From: Propionibacteriaceae bacterium
Lineage (GTDB): Bacteria > Actinomycetota > Actinomycetes > Propionibacteriales > Propionibacteriaceae
Length of the DNA: 44,056 nucleotides
Direction: 5' to 3'
Assembly: GCA_025965155.1 (NCBI GenBank)
Contig: JAOPXN010000010.1
Coordinates: forward strand, 1-44,056
The notes beneath the pieces were generated by a model. That model was not told the origin of the DNA, searched no databases, and saw nothing but the letters and a program-made list of their open reading frames with translations. The position numbers and the translations under genes are program-made. Position 1 is the first letter of the stretch, and the number at the start of each line of letters is the position of its first letter. Of this stretch, positions 1,332-8,707 are shown piece by piece.

Positions 1332-3221
1332 GTGCAGATCGCTCTAGGGATCCTCGCGGTTGTCGCCACGGTCCTGGCCGTCACGGCGGTGGCCGAACGT
1401 ATCCGGTTCCCTGCTCCGCTGCTGTTGATGCTGGTCGGTATCGCCGCGTCCTTCGTGCCTTTCATAAAACAACCGGAACTCTCCTCCCAACTGGTACTCC
1501 TGGGCTTCCTACCCCCACTGCTGTACGTGGCCGCCATCCGGACCTCGGTCATCGACGTCCGCGCCAACCGACGATCGATTGGCTTCCTGTCCATCCTGCT
1601 GGTGGTCATCACCGCCCTCGGCGTCGGCCTGATCACCTGGCTGATCCTGCCGGTGCCGTTCGCGGTTGCGTTTGCGGTGGGCGCGGTGGTGGCACCCCCC
1701 GACGCCGTCGCCGCCACCTCCATCGCACGCCGGGTCGGTCTGCCGCGGCGTCTGGTCACCATCTTGGAGGGCGAGTCCCTGGTCAACGACGCCACCGCCA
1801 TCACCTGTCTGCGCGTGGCCCTGCTCGCGATCGGCGGCGGACTCACCGCCGGCAAGGTGGTGCTCGGCTTCCTGATCGCCGCCATCGGTGGGGCGGCAGT
1901 CGGGCTGGCGGTAGCGTTCCTCGTCGTCGCGATCCGCAAGCGCGTCAACAACCCGGTCTTCGACACCGCGCTGTCCCTGACCGTTCCCTTCGCCGCATAC
2001 ATTCCGGCGGAAGAGGTGAAGTGGGGCGGGTTTCACGGGTCCGGAGTGATCGCCGTCGTGATCGCCGGACTGATCCTCGGGCACAAGTCACCCGTCATCC
2101 AGACCGGTCAGTCCCGGCTCAGTGAACGGATCAACTGGGCCACCATCCAGTTCCTGCTCGAGAACGCCGTCTTCTTGCTGATCGGCCTGCAAGCGCGTCG
2201 GATCCTACGGGGCGTGTCCCGCTCCGAGCTTCCCCCGAGTCAGATCGCCATCTTCTGCCTCGCGGTACTGCTCGGGGTGATCCTGCTCCGGTTGATCTTT
2301 GTTGCGCTGGCTCGCGCCGCCCTGTTCCGCCGCGATCCGGACAAGGACAGCACCATTCCGGATTGGTCGGCGACGCTGGTGATCGGCTGGGCCGGGCTTC
2401 GTGGCGTGGTCACGTTGGCCGCCGCCTTTCTGATCCCAAAGTCAGTGCCACATCAGCCGGTGCTGGTGTTCGCGGCCATGGTCGTCACCGCGGGAACGCT
2501 GCTCGTGCAGGGCCTGTCGCTGCCCTGGCTGGTCCACCGGCTCGGTCTCCGTGGCCCGGACCCTCGTTCCGACGCTCTGCAGGCCGCCACTGTCCTGGAG
2601 ACCTCCGGCAACGCGGCGCTCGGCGCTTTGGAGATACTGAAGCAGCCCACCGACTCCGAACGGGTCCTTCAGATGATCCGGGAACGGATCCGGTTCCGGG
2701 CCAACAGCATCTGGGAGCGTCTCGGTGCGCCTGGCGAGGTCGAGACGCCGGCCGAGGAGTACCGCCGACTGCGGTTGCAGACGCTCCAGGTCGAACGGGA
2801 CGAAATACTGAAGATCCGCGCCACGGGCACCGTCGACCACGACGTCATCGAGCAGGTTCTGGCCTCCTTGGATATCGAGGAGTCCATGCTGACCATGGCC
2901 ACCGAGCGCTCGGAACAGGTGGCCGATGCCGACGCGCCAGTCGAAGCCCCCCCAAGTCCGGTGGGGGACTGCGTCCATCTGACGACGGCCGGGACCGAGG
3001 TCGGTTACGCCCCGATGCGAGTCTGCCAGGACTGCATCCGCGAAGGCACCCGGCCGGTCCACCTCCGCCTCTGTCTGGCCTGCGGCAACGTCGGGTGCTG
3101 CGACTCCTCTGTCGGCCGGCACGCGGACCGGCACTTCCACCAGAGCAAGCACCCGGTGATACGCAGCTTCGAGCCGAACGAGTCCTGGCGCTGGTGCTAT
3201 GTCGACGAGCGGATCGGGTGA
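1332..3221 (+). CDS. CPA1-type Na+/H+ antiporter with C-terminal UBP-type zinc finger
   Basis: A 629-residue membrane protein. Residues 1 to about 420 form the multi-helix antiporter core, including the CPA1 signature LVNDATA, whose Asp is the ion-binding residue in the family. It should exchange Na+ (or K+) for H+ across the cytoplasmic membrane. Residues of about 420-540 are a hydrophilic, helix-rich linker. Residues of about 545-629 are a UBP/BUZ-type zinc finger with an ordered ligand set: C547 and H549, C565 and C568, a further CxxC, GCC, and the HADRHFHQSKH segment. In eukaryotes this domain binds the free C-terminal Gly-Gly of ubiquitin; its ligand in bacteria is not established. The start is a GTG with no clear Shine-Dalgarno sequence. 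Strong assignment; the role of the finger is open. Confidence 0.93.
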   Translation: MQIALGILAVVATVLAVTAVAERIRFPAPLLLMLVGIAASFVPFIKQPELSSQLVLLGFLPPLLYVAAIRTSVIDVRANRRSIGFLSILLVVITALGVGLITWLILPVPFAVAFAVGAVVAPPDAVAATSIARRVGLPRRLVTILEGESLVNDATAITCLRVALLAIGGGLTAGKVVLGFLIAAIGGAAVGLAVAFLVVAIRKRVNNPVFDTALSLTVPFAAYIPAEEVKWGGFHGSGVIAVVIAGLILGHKSPVIQTGQSRLSERINWATIQFLLENAVFLLIGLQARRILRGVSRSELPPSQIAIFCLAVLLGVILLRLIFVALARAALFRRDPDKDSTIPDWSATLVIGWAGLRGVVTLAAAFLIPKSVPHQPVLVFAAMVVTAGTLLVQGLSLPWLVHRLGLRGPDPRSDALQAATVLETSGNAALGALEILKQPTDSERVLQMIRERIRFRANSIWERLGAPGEVETPAEEYRRLRLQTLQVERDEILKIRATGTVDHDVIEQVLASLDIEESMLTMATERSEQVADADAPVEAPPSPVGDCVHLTTAGTEVGYAPMRVCQDCIREGTRPVHLRLCLACGNVGCCDSSVGRHADRHFHQSKHPVIRSFEPNESWRWCYVDERIG

Positions 3222-3298
3222 GGGACCGCCGCGGTAGTCACCGCTAAAGATTTAGGTATCAACTACACCATCGGCGTCTCTTGTTCGGTATGAATGGA

Positions 3299-3342: not shown

Positions 3343-4983
3343 ATGAAGCCGGAGCGACGTAGGCCGCCCGACAAGCAGGCCGCCCAGCCGCGTCGGCGCA
3401 GGGTGGCCGACCAGCCACGCCGCGCTGCGCCGCGACCGGAGGTGCTGGCCCGCCACAACGGTCGGTCGCTGAACCCGGTCACCGCGGTCCGGTTCCGTGG
3501 CCAGCGGCTGGACTCGACCGTGTACGCGGGCGACCGGCTGCTGATCCGGCCGAGCGAGAACGAGCAGGAGGTGTTGGCCGAGCTGGCCGCCGCCGCCAAC
3601 GAGCTGGGGCTGGACATCTCCGTCGACCCGGTGGACCGCAGGCTCCGCCGGATGGCGCGCCAGGCCGGCATCTCGGCCGCCGAGGCGCAGCCGCTGCTGG
3701 CCCGGATCCACCTCACCCCACAGTGGTCGGACCAGCCACTGCCACCACCGGATGCCTGGCCGGTGCTGCAGCTCTTCCGGGCCCGGCTGCGGGCTAACGA
3801 CCCGGACCGCAACAGCGTCCAGCTGGACCACCTGCTCACCTCCGCCAACGGGTCAGGCATCACCGGCAGCCCGTACTGGAAGGTGCCGGGGACCGACGCC
3901 AACCCGTACTGGAAGGTGCCCGGTGGAGTCGGCGAGTACGCCGAGCCGGGCTACGGCGGTCGTACCCCGGTGACCTGGGTGGGCGCTCCCCCACTGCGCT
4001 GCCCGGAGGACTGGCTCAACGGGCGGCGCCGCCCGGTGGTCGCCGTACTGGATACGGGCGTCGGCGAGCATGACTGGCTGCCCGAGTCGATCGTCGACCG
4101 CCGGCCCAAGTGTGGGTCGCTGCGGATTGGCCTCACCGATCCCGCGACCGATCCGGAGCTAACCGGGACAGTGACCGACGCACTCAACGGCGGCCTGGAC
4201 CAAGACGCCGGGCACGGGACCTTCATTGCCGGACTGATCCGGCAGAAGTGCCCCGACGCCAACCTGCTCTCGATCCGGGTGATCCAGGGCGACGGTGTGG
4301 TCAGTGAAGGGGACCTGCTCGAGGCGTTGAACATGCTCTGGCTGAGGCAGAAGCTGGCCATCATCAACAACCGCCCGGAGCAGTTGGTGGACGTCATCTC
4401 CATGTCGCTCGGCTACTACCACGAGCAGCCGGCGGATGCCCGCTTCGATCCGCTGCTGCTCACTCCGTTGCGCGCGCTCGGGGCCCTCGGCGTCGCCGTG
4501 GTCACCTCGGCCGGCAACGACGCCACCACCCGGCCGATGTTTCCGGCCGCCTTCGCACCGCACCCGCAGGGTCTGGTCCGGCGGAACGAGCCGGGCGTGC
4601 TGCCGATTGTCAGTGTCGGTGCGCTGAACCCCGACGGCTCGATCGCGATCTTCTCCAACGAGGGCCCCTGGGTACGGGTCCATCGGCCCGGCGCCGCGCT
4701 GGTCTCCACCCTGCCAGTCACCTTCGACGCCTCCAGGGCGCCGTCGCTGGAGACCACGTACCGCGGAGAGGTGCGCGCCACCATCGACCCCGACGACTTC
4801 TCCTCCGGCTTCGGCACCTGGAGCGGTACGTCGTTCGCGGCGCCGATCCTGGCCGGGGAGATCGCCGAGTGGCTGAACGCCAGCTCCCGGCTCCGTGCCG
4901 ATACCGTAAACGCCGAGTCTGCGCTCGACCTGGGGTGGGACGCGCTGCGGAACTTCGTACCACGCCTGAGGAGGCCGACATGA
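3343..4983 (+). CDS. S8 (subtilisin) family serine protease, no signal peptide
   Basis: A 546-residue subtilase with the full catalytic set: Asp237 in LDTGVG, His291 in GHGTFIAG, oxyanion Asn392 in SAGND and Ser497 in GTSFAAP. The N-terminus is Arg/Pro-rich and has no hydrophobic signal segment, so it probably acts in the cytoplasm, unlike most subtilisins. Residues 1 to about 225 are a long pre-catalytic region that may serve as pro- or recognition domain. It contains an exact repeat of the heptapeptide PYWKVPG (177-183 and 188-194). The ATG is preceded by GAGATGAGG. It is the first gene of a four-gene coupled operon, and its stop overlaps the sigma factor start as ATGA. The enzyme class is secure. 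A role upstream of the sigma and CHAT proteins is inferred from the operon. Confidence 0.93.
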   Translation: MKPERRRPPDKQAAQPRRRRVADQPRRAAPRPEVLARHNGRSLNPVTAVRFRGQRLDSTVYAGDRLLIRPSENEQEVLAELAAAANELGLDISVDPVDRRLRRMARQAGISAAEAQPLLARIHLTPQWSDQPLPPPDAWPVLQLFRARLRANDPDRNSVQLDHLLTSANGSGITGSPYWKVPGTDANPYWKVPGGVGEYAEPGYGGRTPVTWVGAPPLRCPEDWLNGRRRPVVAVLDTGVGEHDWLPESIVDRRPKCGSLRIGLTDPATDPELTGTVTDALNGGLDQDAGHGTFIAGLIRQKCPDANLLSIRVIQGDGVVSEGDLLEALNMLWLRQKLAIINNRPEQLVDVISMSLGYYHEQPADARFDPLLLTPLRALGALGVAVVTSAGNDATTRPMFPAAFAPHPQGLVRRNEPGVLPIVSVGALNPDGSIAIFSNEGPWVRVHRPGAALVSTLPVTFDASRAPSLETTYRGEVRATIDPDDFSSGFGTWSGTSFAAPILAGEIAEWLNASSRLRADTVNAESALDLGWDALRNFVPRLRRPT

Positions 4984-5570
4984 GCGGCGGAACCCTGGAA
5001 GACAGCCTTGCCGCTCGGGCCGGCCGGCTGTTCGCCGACTACCGCAGCGGCGACCAGGCGAAGATGGCCGAGCTGGTGAGGATCCTGACCCCGATCCTGT
5101 GGCACACGGCTCGGGCCACCCGGCTCGACGCCGCCACCGCCGAGGACGTGCTGCAGAGCGTCTGGCTGGCGCTGGTCCGCAAGGCCGACACCATCACCGA
5201 ACCGCTTGCGGTGCTGCAGTGGCTGGTGATCAGCACCAAGCGGGAAGCCTGGCGGCTGTCGAAGCTGCAGACCAAGACCCGGCCCGAAGATGTTGACGGC
5301 GCTACCTTCTCCCGGCTCGAGGGCAGCGCCGCCGTGGAGGACGAGGTCGTCGCCGAGGACGCCCAACTGCGGCTGTGGCGCCACATTGAGGCACTGTCCG
5401 AGCGCTGCCGAACTCTGCTGCGCGTGATCGCCTTCGCCGACCGCCCCGACTACGCCGAGCTCGCCAAGTCTCTCGGCATGCCGCAGGGCAGCATCGGCCC
5501 CACCCGGGGACGGTGCCTGGCCAAGCTCAGGCTGGCCCTCGCTAACGACCCCTCCTGGGAGGACCGATGA
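4980..5570 (+). CDS. Sigma-70 family (ECF-like) RNA polymerase sigma factor
   Basis: A 196-residue protein with the two-domain layout of group IV sigma factors. The region-2 helix (about residues 25-90) contains TAEDVLQSVWLALVRKAD, the counterpart of the A-x-D-hub-Q-E-V/T-F segment. Region 4 (about 130-185) has ALSERCRTLLRVI and the helix-turn-helix YAELAKSLGMPQGSIGPTRGRCLAKL. The start is ATG at 4980, overlapping the protease stop as ATGA, with GAGGAGG just upstream; this implies translational coupling. No anti-sigma factor of a known zinc or membrane type is adjacent. Instead the next genes encode a small two-part protein and a CHAT protease. The sigma class is confident; its regulon is unknown. 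Confidence 0.9.
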   Translation: MSGGTLEDSLAARAGRLFADYRSGDQAKMAELVRILTPILWHTARATRLDAATAEDVLQSVWLALVRKADTITEPLAVLQWLVISTKREAWRLSKLQTKTRPEDVDGATFSRLEGSAAVEDEVVAEDAQLRLWRHIEALSERCRTLLRVIAFADRPDYAELAKSLGMPQGSIGPTRGRCLAKLRLALANDPSWEDR

Positions 5571-6079
5571 GTACCCCCGACTCCGCCGCGGAGCCTGAGC
5601 TGGCCGCCGGCCTGCTCGACCCCAGCGACGCTGCCCTGTTCAACTCCATCCGAGCCGTCTACGACGAACGTGACCCCGTCCCGGACGGGCTGGTGGAGCG
5701 GATCCAGTTCGAGCTCACGCTGGACGCGTTGCATACCGAGGTAGCCACACTGATGCAGCTGGAGTCCGCCACGGCGGGAGTCCGCGGTGGCTCGGCCACC
5801 GAGTCCGTCCGTACGGTGACCTTCACCTCAGACAGCCTCACCACCATGGTGACGATTACTCCGCAGCCGGACCGGACCGTACGCGTCGACGGCTGGGCCG
5901 CCCCAGGGGCCGGGGTGCGGGTGGAGCTGCTGGGGTCGGACGGCTCACAGGAGACGACGGCTGATGAGGACGGGCGCTTCGTCTTCGAGGGCGTTCGGCC
6001 GGGCCTGGCCAAGTTCGTGCTGTACGTCCTGAAGGAGGGCGGCCTGGCCACGGTCGTCAGTCCCGCCATCGAGCTGTAG
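5567..6079 (+). CDS. Small two-part protein: helical N-terminus plus carboxypeptidase-regulatory-like beta domain
   Basis: A 170-residue soluble protein with no signal peptide and no membrane segment. Residues of about 20-70 are predicted helical and contain VPDGLVERIQFELTLDALH. Residues of about 85-170 look like a beta-sandwich of the carboxypeptidase-regulatory/SpaA type: the pattern RVELLGSDGSQETTADEDGRFVFEGVRPG matches the G-x-F-x-F turn of that family. The ATG overlaps the sigma stop as ATGA, and the CHAT gene follows after 3 bases. Such proteins recur beside actinobacterial sigma/CHAT pairs, but I know of no assigned role. Possible roles are sigma inhibitor, adaptor or CHAT substrate. 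All are inference. Confidence 0.8.
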   Translation: MSTPDSAAEPELAAGLLDPSDAALFNSIRAVYDERDPVPDGLVERIQFELTLDALHTEVATLMQLESATAGVRGGSATESVRTVTFTSDSLTTMVTITPQPDRTVRVDGWAAPGAGVRVELLGSDGSQETTADEDGRFVFEGVRPGLAKFVLYVLKEGGLATVVSPAIEL

Positions 6080-6082
6080 CGG

Positions 6083-8707
6083 ATGGCCGCTTCGCTGGAG
6101 CCGGCCGCGCTGCAGAAACGGGCGCAGCAGGACTGCGACCGGGGCAGGTTCGACCTTGCGGAGCGGCGGCTGCGGCACGCCCTGGCCCAGCTGTCGGCGG
6201 CTGACGGCAACGGCACCGACACCTCCTCGACCCGGGTCCGGGTCCTGGTCACCCTCTCCACGGTCGAGGTGGAGCTCTACGGTCAGCAGCACGGCCGGTC
6301 GTCACTGGACGAGGCGCACCGGATCGCCGCCGAGACCGCCGCGCCGGAGCTCGGGTTCGCCGTCCACAACGCCTCCGCGCTGCGCTCGCTCCGCTTCGGT
6401 GACACCGACGAGGCGCTGCGGCAGTTCAGCGTGGCGGACACGTTGGCCGACGGGGCGACCGTGCCCGAACGCTGCACGCTGCTGCTGAACCGCGGCAACG
6501 TGTACCTGCAGCGGCTTGAGCTGGGCGACGCCCGTCGGGACCTGCAGCGGTGTATCACGCTGGCCGATGAGGAAATCGGGTCCTCCCCCGAGCTGGCAAC
6601 CCACGCGTTCATGGCGCGGCACAACCTGGGTTGGCTGGAGTTCCTGGCCGGCAACCTGCCGGCGGCGCTACGGCTGATGGACGAGGCGGCGGCTCAGCCG
6701 GCCGACGCCTCGCTCGCGATCTCGGCCCTCGACAAGGCCCGGGTGCTGATCGAGGCCGGGCTCAGCGATGCCGCCGACCGGGCGCTGGCCGACGCGGCTG
6801 CCCAGTTCCGGCGAGGCAGGCTGCACCAGGAGCTGGCCGAGACCGAGCTGGCCCGGGCAGAGTGCGCCGTGCTGAGCAGCAACCTGGCTGCGGCCCGCAT
6901 CCTGGCTCGGTCGGCCCGCGACCGGTTCCGCCGACGCGGCAACGAGCGGTGGTCCCAGATGGCCGAGCTCGCCCTGCTGGCCACCGACCTGGCCGCCGGC
7001 GAACGCGCCAGTGGGCTGATCCGACCGGCCACCCGGCTTGCCGAGGACTTCGCCGCCCAGCAGCTGGACGCGCACGCTCGGACCGCCGAGCTGCTGGCCT
7101 GCAGCGCCCTGCTCCGCGCCGGACGCACCGAGGAGGCCGAGGCCCGGATGGCTCGGCTGGGCCCGATCCGGCTGAGCGATCCGCTGGCCGTGGTGCTGCA
7201 GCATCGTGCAGTCACCGCGTCGCTGTTCGAGGCGCTCGGCCGGCACCGGGAGGCGACCCGGCAGGTCCGGATCGGCCTGGACGAGCTGGCCCGGCACCAG
7301 GCCAAGTTCGGCAGCATCGACCTGCAGACCGCCGGCGCCATCCACGGCCGCGAGCTGGTCGCGCTGGACCTGGACCTGGCGTTCAGCGACCCCACCCCGG
7401 CCCGCGTCTTCAACGCGATCGAGCGTGGCCGCGCCGTCTCCCGCCGGCTGAACGCCGTCACGCCACGCACCGACGAGGCGTCGGACCTGCTCGCCGAGCT
7501 GCGGCAGCTGACCGAGATGACCACCGCGATGACCGGTGATCCGGATGCAGCTGCGGCGCTGGCCACAGTGCGGGGCCGGATCGGCGAGCTGTACCGCGAG
7601 CTGAGCGCGGTGTCCTGGCGTGCCGTCGGCGCCGGCGACGTGATCCGTCCGGCATCGATGGCCCGGGTAGCGGCGGCCGCCACCGAGCACGGGACGACCC
7701 TGGTCTCGTTCAGCCAGCACCGGTCCCGCTGGTCGGCGGTGCTGCTCGGCGACGGGCGTCCGCGGATCCTCGGGCTGCCGGGCGACGACCGCATTCTTGA
7801 GCTGGTACGACGCTCCCAGGCCGACCTCAACGTGCTCGCCTACCCGCTGCTGCCGGAGCCGGTGCGGCGCAGCGCGAGGGCCTCGCTACGGCGCTGCCTG
7901 GAACAGATCGACCGGTGGCTGATCGCTCCGCTGCAGCTGCCCGACACCCCGTTGGCAATCGTGCCCACGGGACCGATCGCCACGCTGGCGTGGAACTGTC
8001 TGCCGAGTCTGCGAGGTCGCCCAGTGCAGGTCTCGCCGACGGCGACGTCGTGGTTGTCGGGTGCCGAGGCGGTCGACACAACGGGCACCGTCAGCGTGGA
8101 GGTCTTCGCCGGACCGGGCCTGGACTTCGCACCCCGCGAGGCGACCGGTGTCGCGGAGGTATGGAACACCAGCCGCCGGGACCGGGCCGGCCTGACCTCG
8201 CGAAGCACGGCATCGACTCCCGGAGGCACCGCGCCGGCGGATCGGCTGCACCTACGCTCGGCGGCGAGCCGGGCGGAGCTGAGCCGGGCCTTGGCCGAGG
8301 CGACGGTGGTGCACGTCGCCGCGCACGGCGCGCACATCCCACAGAACCCGATGTTCTCCTCGCTCCAGCTAGCCGACGGGGCACTGTTCGCCTACGAGCT
8401 GGCCGAGAAACAGGTGGCTCCGCACGTCGTGCTGTCGGCCTGCGAGCTCGGTCAGGCGACGCTACGTACCGGGGATGAGGCGCTCGGGCTGACCCGGGTA
8501 CTGCTCCAGCTCGGGACCCAGTGCGTCGTGGCAGGGGTGTCCCAGGTGGACGACGATGCGGCCGCGGCGGTGATGGTGGACTATCACCGCCGACTGGCCG
8601 CAGGGGCCGACTCGGCGACCGCACTCGCCGCCGCCACCGAACATGCCGGCGATGTCCCGTTCGTCTGCTTCGGCTCCTCCTGGCGGGCACTGCCGGCTAC
8701 CGGCTAA
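6083..8707 (+). CDS. TPR-CHAT protease (caspase-fold cysteine peptidase)
   Basis: An 874-residue protein. Residues 1 to about 480 are helical repeats of TPR type, for example LLLNRGNVYLQRLELGDARR and the HNLGWLEFLAGNLPAAL segment. Residues of about 540-874 are a CHAT domain with catalytic His748 in VVHVAAHG and Cys787 in VLSACELG, followed by the family pattern GLTRVLLQLGTQCVVAG. CHAT enzymes are clostripain/caspase-like proteases whose TPR part usually senses a partner that unlocks cleavage. Known cases cut gasdermins or Csx30. There is no signal peptide, so it should act in the cytoplasm. It is the last gene of the protease-sigma-adaptor operon, with a 3-base gap to the previous stop. The dyad is intact, so activity is likely; trigger and substrate are unknown. 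Confidence 0.93.
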   Translation: MAASLEPAALQKRAQQDCDRGRFDLAERRLRHALAQLSAADGNGTDTSSTRVRVLVTLSTVEVELYGQQHGRSSLDEAHRIAAETAAPELGFAVHNASALRSLRFGDTDEALRQFSVADTLADGATVPERCTLLLNRGNVYLQRLELGDARRDLQRCITLADEEIGSSPELATHAFMARHNLGWLEFLAGNLPAALRLMDEAAAQPADASLAISALDKARVLIEAGLSDAADRALADAAAQFRRGRLHQELAETELARAECAVLSSNLAAARILARSARDRFRRRGNERWSQMAELALLATDLAAGERASGLIRPATRLAEDFAAQQLDAHARTAELLACSALLRAGRTEEAEARMARLGPIRLSDPLAVVLQHRAVTASLFEALGRHREATRQVRIGLDELARHQAKFGSIDLQTAGAIHGRELVALDLDLAFSDPTPARVFNAIERGRAVSRRLNAVTPRTDEASDLLAELRQLTEMTTAMTGDPDAAAALATVRGRIGELYRELSAVSWRAVGAGDVIRPASMARVAAAATEHGTTLVSFSQHRSRWSAVLLGDGRPRILGLPGDDRILELVRRSQADLNVLAYPLLPEPVRRSARASLRRCLEQIDRWLIAPLQLPDTPLAIVPTGPIATLAWNCLPSLRGRPVQVSPTATSWLSGAEAVDTTGTVSVEVFAGPGLDFAPREATGVAEVWNTSRRDRAGLTSRSTASTPGGTAPADRLHLRSAASRAELSRALAEATVVHVAAHGAHIPQNPMFSSLQLADGALFAYELAEKQVAPHVVLSACELGQATLRTGDEALGLTRVLLQLGTQCVVAGVSQVDDDAAAAVMVDYHRRLAAGADSATALAAATEHAGDVPFVCFGSSWRALPATG

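Follow-up and report, generated by a model that had tools for sequence, protein, structure and literature searches.

A four-gene operon of Propionibacteriaceae as a putative ECF54-context sigma switch with two separable gene couples and a peptide array in its subtilase

What might two proteases, encoded in one tight operon with a sigma factor and a small protein, do to that sigma factor? The question is raised by a 44,056-nucleotide stretch from Propionibacteriaceae bacterium (GenBank assembly GCA_025965155.1, contig JAOPXN010000010.1, positions 1 to 44,056 of the forward strand; hereafter the window), in which genes for a subtilase (S8), an extracytoplasmic function (ECF)-type sigma factor (SIG), a 170-aa partner protein (ADP), and a TPR-CHAT caspase-like protease (CHAT) follow one another. 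We propose that the operon is a sigma switch with the gene context of group ECF54, composed of two gene couples, in which a cascade would run from S8 through CHAT to residue R73 of ADP and thereby to SIG; we give this reading about an even chance of being correct. The features involved are as follows, with structure models from AlphaFold2 (AF2) and their confidence as predicted local distance difference test (pLDDT) values.

3256..3282, plus strand: predicted promoter box GTATCA-N16-CTCTT, 60 bases upstream of the S8 start codon (exact motif match)
3343..4983, plus strand: S8 subtilase (546 aa), a zymogen-like protein built of an N-terminal prodomain, a repeat linker, and a catalytic domain (PF00082, 9.4e-21; AF2; PDB match)
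3460..3840, plus strand: S8 prodomain, about residues 40-166 (AF2 blocks 41 to 160 at pLDDT 84-98; PDB match)
3868..3924, plus strand: two copies of (S/N)PYWKVPG, residues 176-183 and 187-194, an abbreviated version of the tandem array, located in a linker modeled as disordered
4980..5570, plus strand: ECF-type sigma factor SIG (196 aa), gene context of group ECF54 (PF04542, TIGR02937)
5567..6079, plus strand: ADP, 170-aa partner in which three N-terminal helices precede a CarboxypepD_reg-like sandwich of eight strands; putative anti-sigma or sequestering protein (AF2, gene pairing)
5783..5785, plus strand: codon for R73 of ADP, a candidate site of proteolytic cleavage (alignment, AF2 loop)
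6083..8707, plus strand: TPR-CHAT caspase-like protease (874 aa) (PF12770, 7.6e-29; TPR models below cut-off)

The first-pass annotation of this DNA had described the four genes as coupled; indeed, the window coordinates give ATGA overlaps at the S8/SIG and SIG/ADP junctions and a 3-base gap between ADP and CHAT. The catalytic residues it named are also in place, and alignment shows the S8 triad D237/H291/S497 to be invariant in 80/80 S8 proteins and the CHAT dyad H748/C787 in 89/89 CHAT proteins. As it likewise held, no signal peptide is seen at the N terminus of any of the four proteins, as judged by eye rather than by a predictor. The S8 peptide repeat, the promoter box, and R73 are features beyond that annotation. 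Peptidase_S8, Sigma70_r2, and CHAT are matched above their Pfam cut-offs, TPR models in the CHAT protein are sub-threshold, and SIG scores 53.2 bits against the ECF superfamily model TIGR02937 (cut-off 42.9; residues 29-187, spanning sigma2 to sigma4) in addition to its PF04542 match.

The gene context itself is already known. Section 3.3 of PMC8999054 describes carboxypeptidase, subtilase, and CHAT-domain proteins around ECF54 sigma genes and, with Huang 2015 and Casas-Pastor 2021 as its sources, states that proteolytic control without an anti-sigma factor was proposed on the basis of that context. The sigma gene in the window lies with subtilase, CHAT, and carboxypeptidase(-regulatory) genes, so that its assignment to ECF54 is by context, the CarboxypepD_reg match of ADP (24.6 bits) being under the Pfam cut-off of 32.3. 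In contrast to the carboxypeptidase-type protein of that section, however, the small protein here has a CarboxypepD_reg-like, non-peptidase fold with an invariant R73, and the split couples, the promoter box with its regulon, and the repeat array are absent from section 3.3. We found no report of the couples, box and regulon, R73, or array in the literature searched; the promoter motif may be in Casas-Pastor 2021.

To what extent are the four genes kept together? We assembled 94 loci from 16 relatives' regions found through ADP and 80 found through SIG, less two duplicates (L037 and L038, of L025 and L028; this leaves 78 SIG-found loci). The 80 are the best of 557 kept from an alignment scan that identified at least 557 SIG relatives among 593 candidate stretches. 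Genes were called with a simple custom script, so gene starts and spacings in relatives are approximate, and a six-frame check recovered two misses (SIG in L107 and ADP in L092). The gene calls place the whole set on a single strand, no more than 5.5 kb from SIG, in 78/94 loci; with L092 and L107 the count of complete loci rises to 80/94, the opposite of the lack of joint conservation that the first-pass annotation had named as refuting its reading. Seven further loci hold SIG, ADP, and CHAT without S8, five hold SIG and ADP only, and two (L041 and L047) are truncated at contig ends. The raw calls also gave one locus each with SIG, ADP, and S8; with SIG alone; with SIG, CHAT, and S8; and with no SIG, the last two being complete after the six-frame check. 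ADP stands beside SIG in 93/94 loci, the remaining one being cut short by its contig end. Among the 80 loci in which S8 and SIG are called, S8 leads in 65 and follows ADP in 15. Flanking genes vary from lineage to lineage. ADP matches occur in 17/57 relatives' genomes and in 30/396 genomes of the phylum, own genome included. In 30 more distant loci SIG adjoins ADP in 26, with no SIG on the ADP strand in L128, L138, L144, and L145. Together, these data support the view that the operon is a single functional unit kept well outside the genus.

Within this unit, SIG with ADP and S8 with CHAT form two couples that can separate. Genome-level searches for S8 and CHAT covered a chosen set of genomes, which takes in some of those with the system. 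In 4/9 same-genus genomes with a close form of it (G008, G015, G017, and G019), the locus holds SIG and ADP only, and S8 and CHAT lie adjacent to each other elsewhere in the genome. The first-pass annotation had taken the coupling as a sign of a complex; because of these four genomes, a fixed four-protein complex is doubtful. We also considered that loci with SIG and ADP only are decayed relics and rejected this for the same four genomes and for L039, whose genome holds S8. The unlinked S8-CHAT pair of G008 has its own exact promoter box, and the stretches examined at the pairs of G015, G017, and G019 yielded none. In six searched of the ten same-genus genomes without ADP, neither S8 nor CHAT was found at E<=1e-40 (SIG was not searched there). 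Among 14 distant genomes with ADP, chosen from 30, CHAT is present at 1e-40 in 13 and a weaker, partial S8 match at 1e-30 in seven; in six of these seven (G098, G142, G174, G245, G334, and G372) the coordinates place CHAT and S8 at most 4 kb apart on opposite strands. S8 of this type was absent at E<=1e-40 from 6/7 genomes with SIG-ADP-CHAT loci. The loss pattern across loci and genomes thus suggests that SIG and ADP form the core, that CHAT comes next, and that S8, lost more often than CHAT, is the most dispensable.

A predicted promoter box ties the operon to some of the unlinked S8-CHAT pairs and to a small regulon. A paired 5-mer search upstream of operons recovered GTATC-N17-CTCCT in 42/118 regions, where the most frequent pair of one shuffled set was counted 7 times, and a refined motif reached a score of at least 9 in 95/118 of the operon upstream regions, on which the model had itself been trained, against 7/590 shuffles. 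Genome-wide, we counted GTATCAN{15,17}CTCYT with the reversed pattern as control. The nine same-genus genomes with a close form of the system (G000, G005, G008, G010, G011, G015, G017, G018, and G019) hold 49 matches against 7 (42 without the seven operon boxes), and the ten same-genus genomes without ADP hold 14 against 18. G009, with a more distant form, has 1 against 1. In a further set of 16 genomes with the system (15 from other genera, found by way of named loci, and G009, which is in both counts) there are 60 matches against 15; leaving out the twelve operon boxes, 48 remain. Under a looser pattern, GTATCA-type sites also precede the S8 gene in L264, L266, and L267; two overlap the called start of the opposite gene.

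Orthologous targets behind the box recur in two to four genomes. They include a 243-aa protein (G000, G018, G011, and G010) that appears exported by eye, an L,D-transpeptidase with a peptidoglycan-binding domain (G000, G018, and G011), a DyP-type peroxidase (G018 and G015), and other proteins judged by eye to be exported or membrane-bound. Targets found in single genomes include tyrosinase, trypsin-like, PASTA, and endonuclease/phosphatase-family proteins, and in one genome the regulon would include the unlinked S8-CHAT pair. Some sites are intragenic or far from any gene.

Several box sites drew our attention in their own right. In L184, L192, and L209 the box has the same place beside a gene that we take to be glmM (G018, G011, and G005), with no called gene behind it on its strand; a small gene or RNA may lie there. 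In L103 and L109 a gene downstream of CHAT (L103:12650-14749 and L109:12652-14781) has its own box about 55 bases ahead, and that of L103 encodes a further subtilase, distinct from S8, whose prodomain is of the Fervidolysin type. The DyP peroxidase (L182:583-2094) and the tyrosinase (L202:575-2296) behind the box are oxidizing enzymes, while the S8 array is rich in Tyr and Trp. A box target in G010 (L207:534-1970, weak Trypsin match) and a divergent operon neighbor in G024 (L034:5451-6818, no Pfam match) have N termini that look alike by eye. The second gene behind the box in G017 (L198:476-1819) encodes a 448-aa protein without a Pfam match, which by eye bears a slight likeness to pore-formers.

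What distinguishes the S8 protease is its linker. The AF2 model (80 sequences, pLDDT 88.7, predicted template modeling score [pTM] 0.90) shows an ordered prodomain at about residues 40-166 and a catalytic domain, with linker residues 169-192 disordered (pLDDT below 50), and the best PDB match is unautoprocessed pro-subtilisin E (3whi; E 2.8e-13). Prodomain and catalytic domain are common to both, whereas here a lineage-specific peptide array occupies the linker. Counting S8 hits at a hidden Markov model E<=1e-4, partial genes at contig ends included and the window's own S8 left out, we found tandem peptides between prodomain and catalytic domain in 86/100 S8 genes, with periods of 6 residues in 57, 7 in 18, 11 in 5, 10 in 3, and 5, 8, and 9 once each; no array lies behind the catalytic His region. 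The window's S8 has just two copies. Of the 14 genes without an array, L054, L061, and L072 are partial at locus ends and L116 falls just below threshold (8.5); the others are L029, L030, L050, L141-L143, L146, and the distant L125, L133, and L134. An array score of at least 9 is reached by 33/1270 other called proteins of the loci, and at a threshold of 8 by 0/95 SIG, 0/93 ADP, and 5/86 CHAT proteins.

The 80 arrays with at least three copies comprise 62 different units; an aromatic residue occurs in 74, G or P in all 80, and K or R in 7. Neighboring copies differ at codon positions 1, 2, and 3 by 1.3, 1.1, and 34.7%, respectively. Since third positions differ by about 35% and first and second positions by about 1%, selection appears to keep the copies identical. 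Similarly, the proportion of synonymous differences (pS) between adjacent copies is 0.462, close to the 0.505 of randomly picked codons from that gene, with a nonsynonymous proportion (pN) of 0.0107, and 0/80 arrays have identical DNA units; with silent sites near saturation, recent slippage is disfavored. G153 and G408 each carry two side-by-side S8-CHAT systems with different units, HP(M/L)YDG and PFTSGG, and both units are kept between the two genomes, with the M/L change present in all four copies. The array thus seems to be selection-locked, with units that are lineage-specific and copies held alike. Across 72 loci, window included (all four genes called, arrays of at least two copies, L120 and L121 excluded), distances between units correlate with those of the ADP N-terminal part (0.61), CHAT domain (0.58), ADP sandwich (0.52), SIG (0.52), TPR region (0.48), S8 catalytic domain (0.28), and S8 prodomain (0.20). 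A unit fitted to the active site of S8 itself is weakly disfavored by these correlations, whose permutation ignores ancestry. As further observations, G005 (L229) has, in addition to a complete operon, another S8-CHAT pair whose array is of the MTVGG type, and in both L120 and L121 two S8-CHAT systems that differ in repeat unit adjoin each other, with one SIG called per locus.

ADP, in turn, looks like a set of helices joined to a CarboxypepD_reg-like sandwich and not like a peptidase. Its AF2 model (17 sequences, pLDDT 87.4, pTM 0.54) has helices at residues 8-14, 19-35, and 42-70 and eight strands within 82-164, with residues 72-76 at a pLDDT below 50. R73 sits in this low-confidence loop and is arginine in 126/126 aligned ADPs; it is followed by G, S, A, or T in 122/126, and nearby columns are variable or gapped (column 75 is gapped in 92/126). 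Arginine at P1 is favored by several clan CD proteases. R73 is our best candidate for a protease cut site, with a contact to the sigma factor as its rival. ADP matched no known anti-sigma domain in Pfam or NCBIfam, and its fold search gave weak matches throughout, mostly to sandwich folds.

These elements can be joined into a mechanism. ADP would keep SIG inactive as a soluble anti-sigma factor until a trigger switches on the cytosolic S8 zymogen. The TPR-CHAT protein would then read the S8 repeat linker, either by docking or through peptides released on cleavage, and active CHAT would cleave ADP after R73, parting the helices from the sandwich. The released SIG would transcribe its own operon, giving positive feedback, along with envelope, exported, and redox genes. 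S8 would serve as optional input, CHAT as executioner, ADP as substrate, and SIG as output. The order of loss, with the SIG-ADP core kept best, then CHAT, and S8 lost most, fits proteases acting in series. The serial action suggested in the first-pass annotation is to this extent consistent with the data, since the two proteases go together, while the cascade as such stays conjectural. Its suggestion that the sigma factor is released or destroyed divides similarly: it is plausible that the small protein plays a part like that of Csx30, given an invariant R73 in a flexible loop, but cleavage of SIG finds no direct support, and ADP is the better candidate substrate.

A further step is more tentative. 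Cytosolic S8 may carry its own multi-copy peptide ligand for TPR-CHAT, as a proximity scaffold or as peptides freed on S8 maturation, so that an insulated, lineage-specific cascade cuts ADP at R73 and frees SIG; we consider this possible, at well under an even chance. Multi-copy peptide precursors such as yeast alpha-factor and the fungal kexin-processed peptides carry identical short tandem peptides that vary between species. They differ from the present case, in which the array lies inside a protease that is apparently cytosolic, any release of its peptides being hypothetical.

Several observations weigh against this picture. The window's own genome shows no box enrichment (4 matches against 3 for the control), and 448 bases separate one of its three additional sites from the next gene. 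S8 is missing from the six genomes noted above and so is not essential, and ADP lacks a neighboring SIG in the four distant loci. The low change at codon positions 1 and 2 is partly built in, the arrays having been chosen on amino acid identity, although the third-position change is not; no array was found in the distant S8 genes L262-L268. The unit-distance test favors CHAT, ADP, and SIG alike over the S8 catalytic domain and is thus not CHAT-specific. It is also confounded by ancestry, which the permutation ignores; the S8 catalytic domain shows a weaker correlation with the other parts than SIG, CHAT, or ADP does, and in the 14 loci of order B there is no difference. R73 is kept in loci without a neighboring CHAT and in G441, which has no CHAT at 1e-40, so that its conservation may reflect another protease or a contact to the sigma factor. 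Foldseek gave no PDB match for ADP at E<=0.001, and none of the matches listed is named an anti-sigma factor; binding and inhibition of SIG by ADP are proposed from gene pairing.

Four other explanations bear on the same evidence. S8, CHAT, or both might degrade SIG to hold the system off, with ADP as a scaffold delivering SIG to them. Proteolytic control has already been proposed in print for ECF54, and S8 is a co-encoded, zymogen-like protease. The ADP sandwich is of a kind often used for recognition. Yet SIG-ADP units exist with unlinked proteases, six genomes lack S8, and the sole invariant residue in a disordered loop is in ADP (SIG being judged from its list of conserved columns alone); we regard SIG degradation as unlikely. 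No more probable in our estimate is that R73 is a fixed contact to SIG or within ADP, that CHAT acts on S8 or other proteins, and that a ligand on the ADP sandwich frees SIG. Such a contact would explain why R73 is kept in loci without a neighboring CHAT and in the four ADPs without a neighboring SIG, and the loop, modeled by AF2 from 17 sequences of ADP alone, may become ordered in a complex. Variable or gapped adjacent residues and the small residue that follows R73 nevertheless fit a cut site better.

The array could also be a neutral, low-complexity linker produced by replication slippage, as its modeled disorder, its varying copy number and unit, the two copies in the window, and its absence from 14/100 S8 genes and from L262-L268 might suggest. 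Copies made by slippage should share silent sites, however, and these are close to those of random codons, with no array of identical DNA units; a comparable score is reached by few other proteins of the loci. We think a slippage origin improbable. The least probable of the four is an anti-phage or abortive-infection module resembling the type III-E CASP system. The CHAT-Csx30-sigma logic of PMC10028731 is similar, the Csx29 model NF041237 matches CHAT weakly (4.1e-5; 22.6 bits, far under the cut-off of 300), and a caspase-domain gene adjoins the operon in L033. Against it, the 19 neighbor proteins scanned comprise nine housekeeping proteins, seven without a Pfam family, one subtilase, one caspase-domain protein, and one sub-threshold CarboxypepD_reg protein, and none is a Cas protein. 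From PADLOC came only generic models for subtilase (1.6e-5 for the window S8) and caspase, besides IetS, which S8 matched at E 0.03-0.08. Those recurrent targets that belong to a family are envelope or redox enzymes, and others look exported by eye. The defense role that the first-pass annotation had suggested, and the enrichment near defense genes that it had proposed to look for, therefore gained no positive support from the sampled neighbors or PADLOC, nor did a defense island; because the neighbors were a sample, we call defense unsupported and not excluded.

Two neighboring genes may be mentioned here. The caspase-domain gene of L033 (L033:12284-13822, Peptidase_C14, in G009) is oriented divergently from the operon, and in that genome the system may thus involve a second caspase-like protease. 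In the window, the protein encoded upstream of the operon (1332-3221), presumably antiporter-like, has a Cys/His-rich C-terminal tail that by eye resembles a UBP-type zinc finger, and several same-genus loci have an upstream protein of about this length.

How does the proposed switch compare with known ones? In the type III-E CASP system, as described in PMC10028731, Csx29 cuts Csx30, an inhibitor of CASP-sigma, and cleaving this intermediate relieves sigma inhibition. As there, a TPR-CHAT protease, an intermediate protein, and an ECF-like sigma factor share one locus. The present operon differs in its extra S8 protease and in ADP, which has 170 aa against 565 aa for Csx30, with no homology shown. 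No Cas protein was matched among the genes scanned here, a scan not aimed at Cas genes or CRISPR arrays. Successive proteases also free an ECF sigma factor in the DegS/RseP-RseA-RpoE pathway (PMC8103513), where both proteases and the anti-sigma factor are membrane proteins, whereas the four proteins here lack a signal peptide by eye. Other caspase systems with ECF sigma factors are described in PMC8195603, and PMC10907252 has no bearing on the present operon.

Switches of the ECF54 context are widespread in actinobacteria, and the passage on them in PMC8999054 names no anti-sigma factor, promoter, or target. The data presented here offer four handles on such a switch: the promoter box, the regulon, residue R73, and the repeat array. 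If the proposed mechanism is true, a caspase-like and subtilisin cascade with an internal, lineage-specific peptide code would be a new way of insulating proteolytic signaling, with a logic close to that of caspase activation platforms and of the CRISPR CASP systems, without CRISPR.
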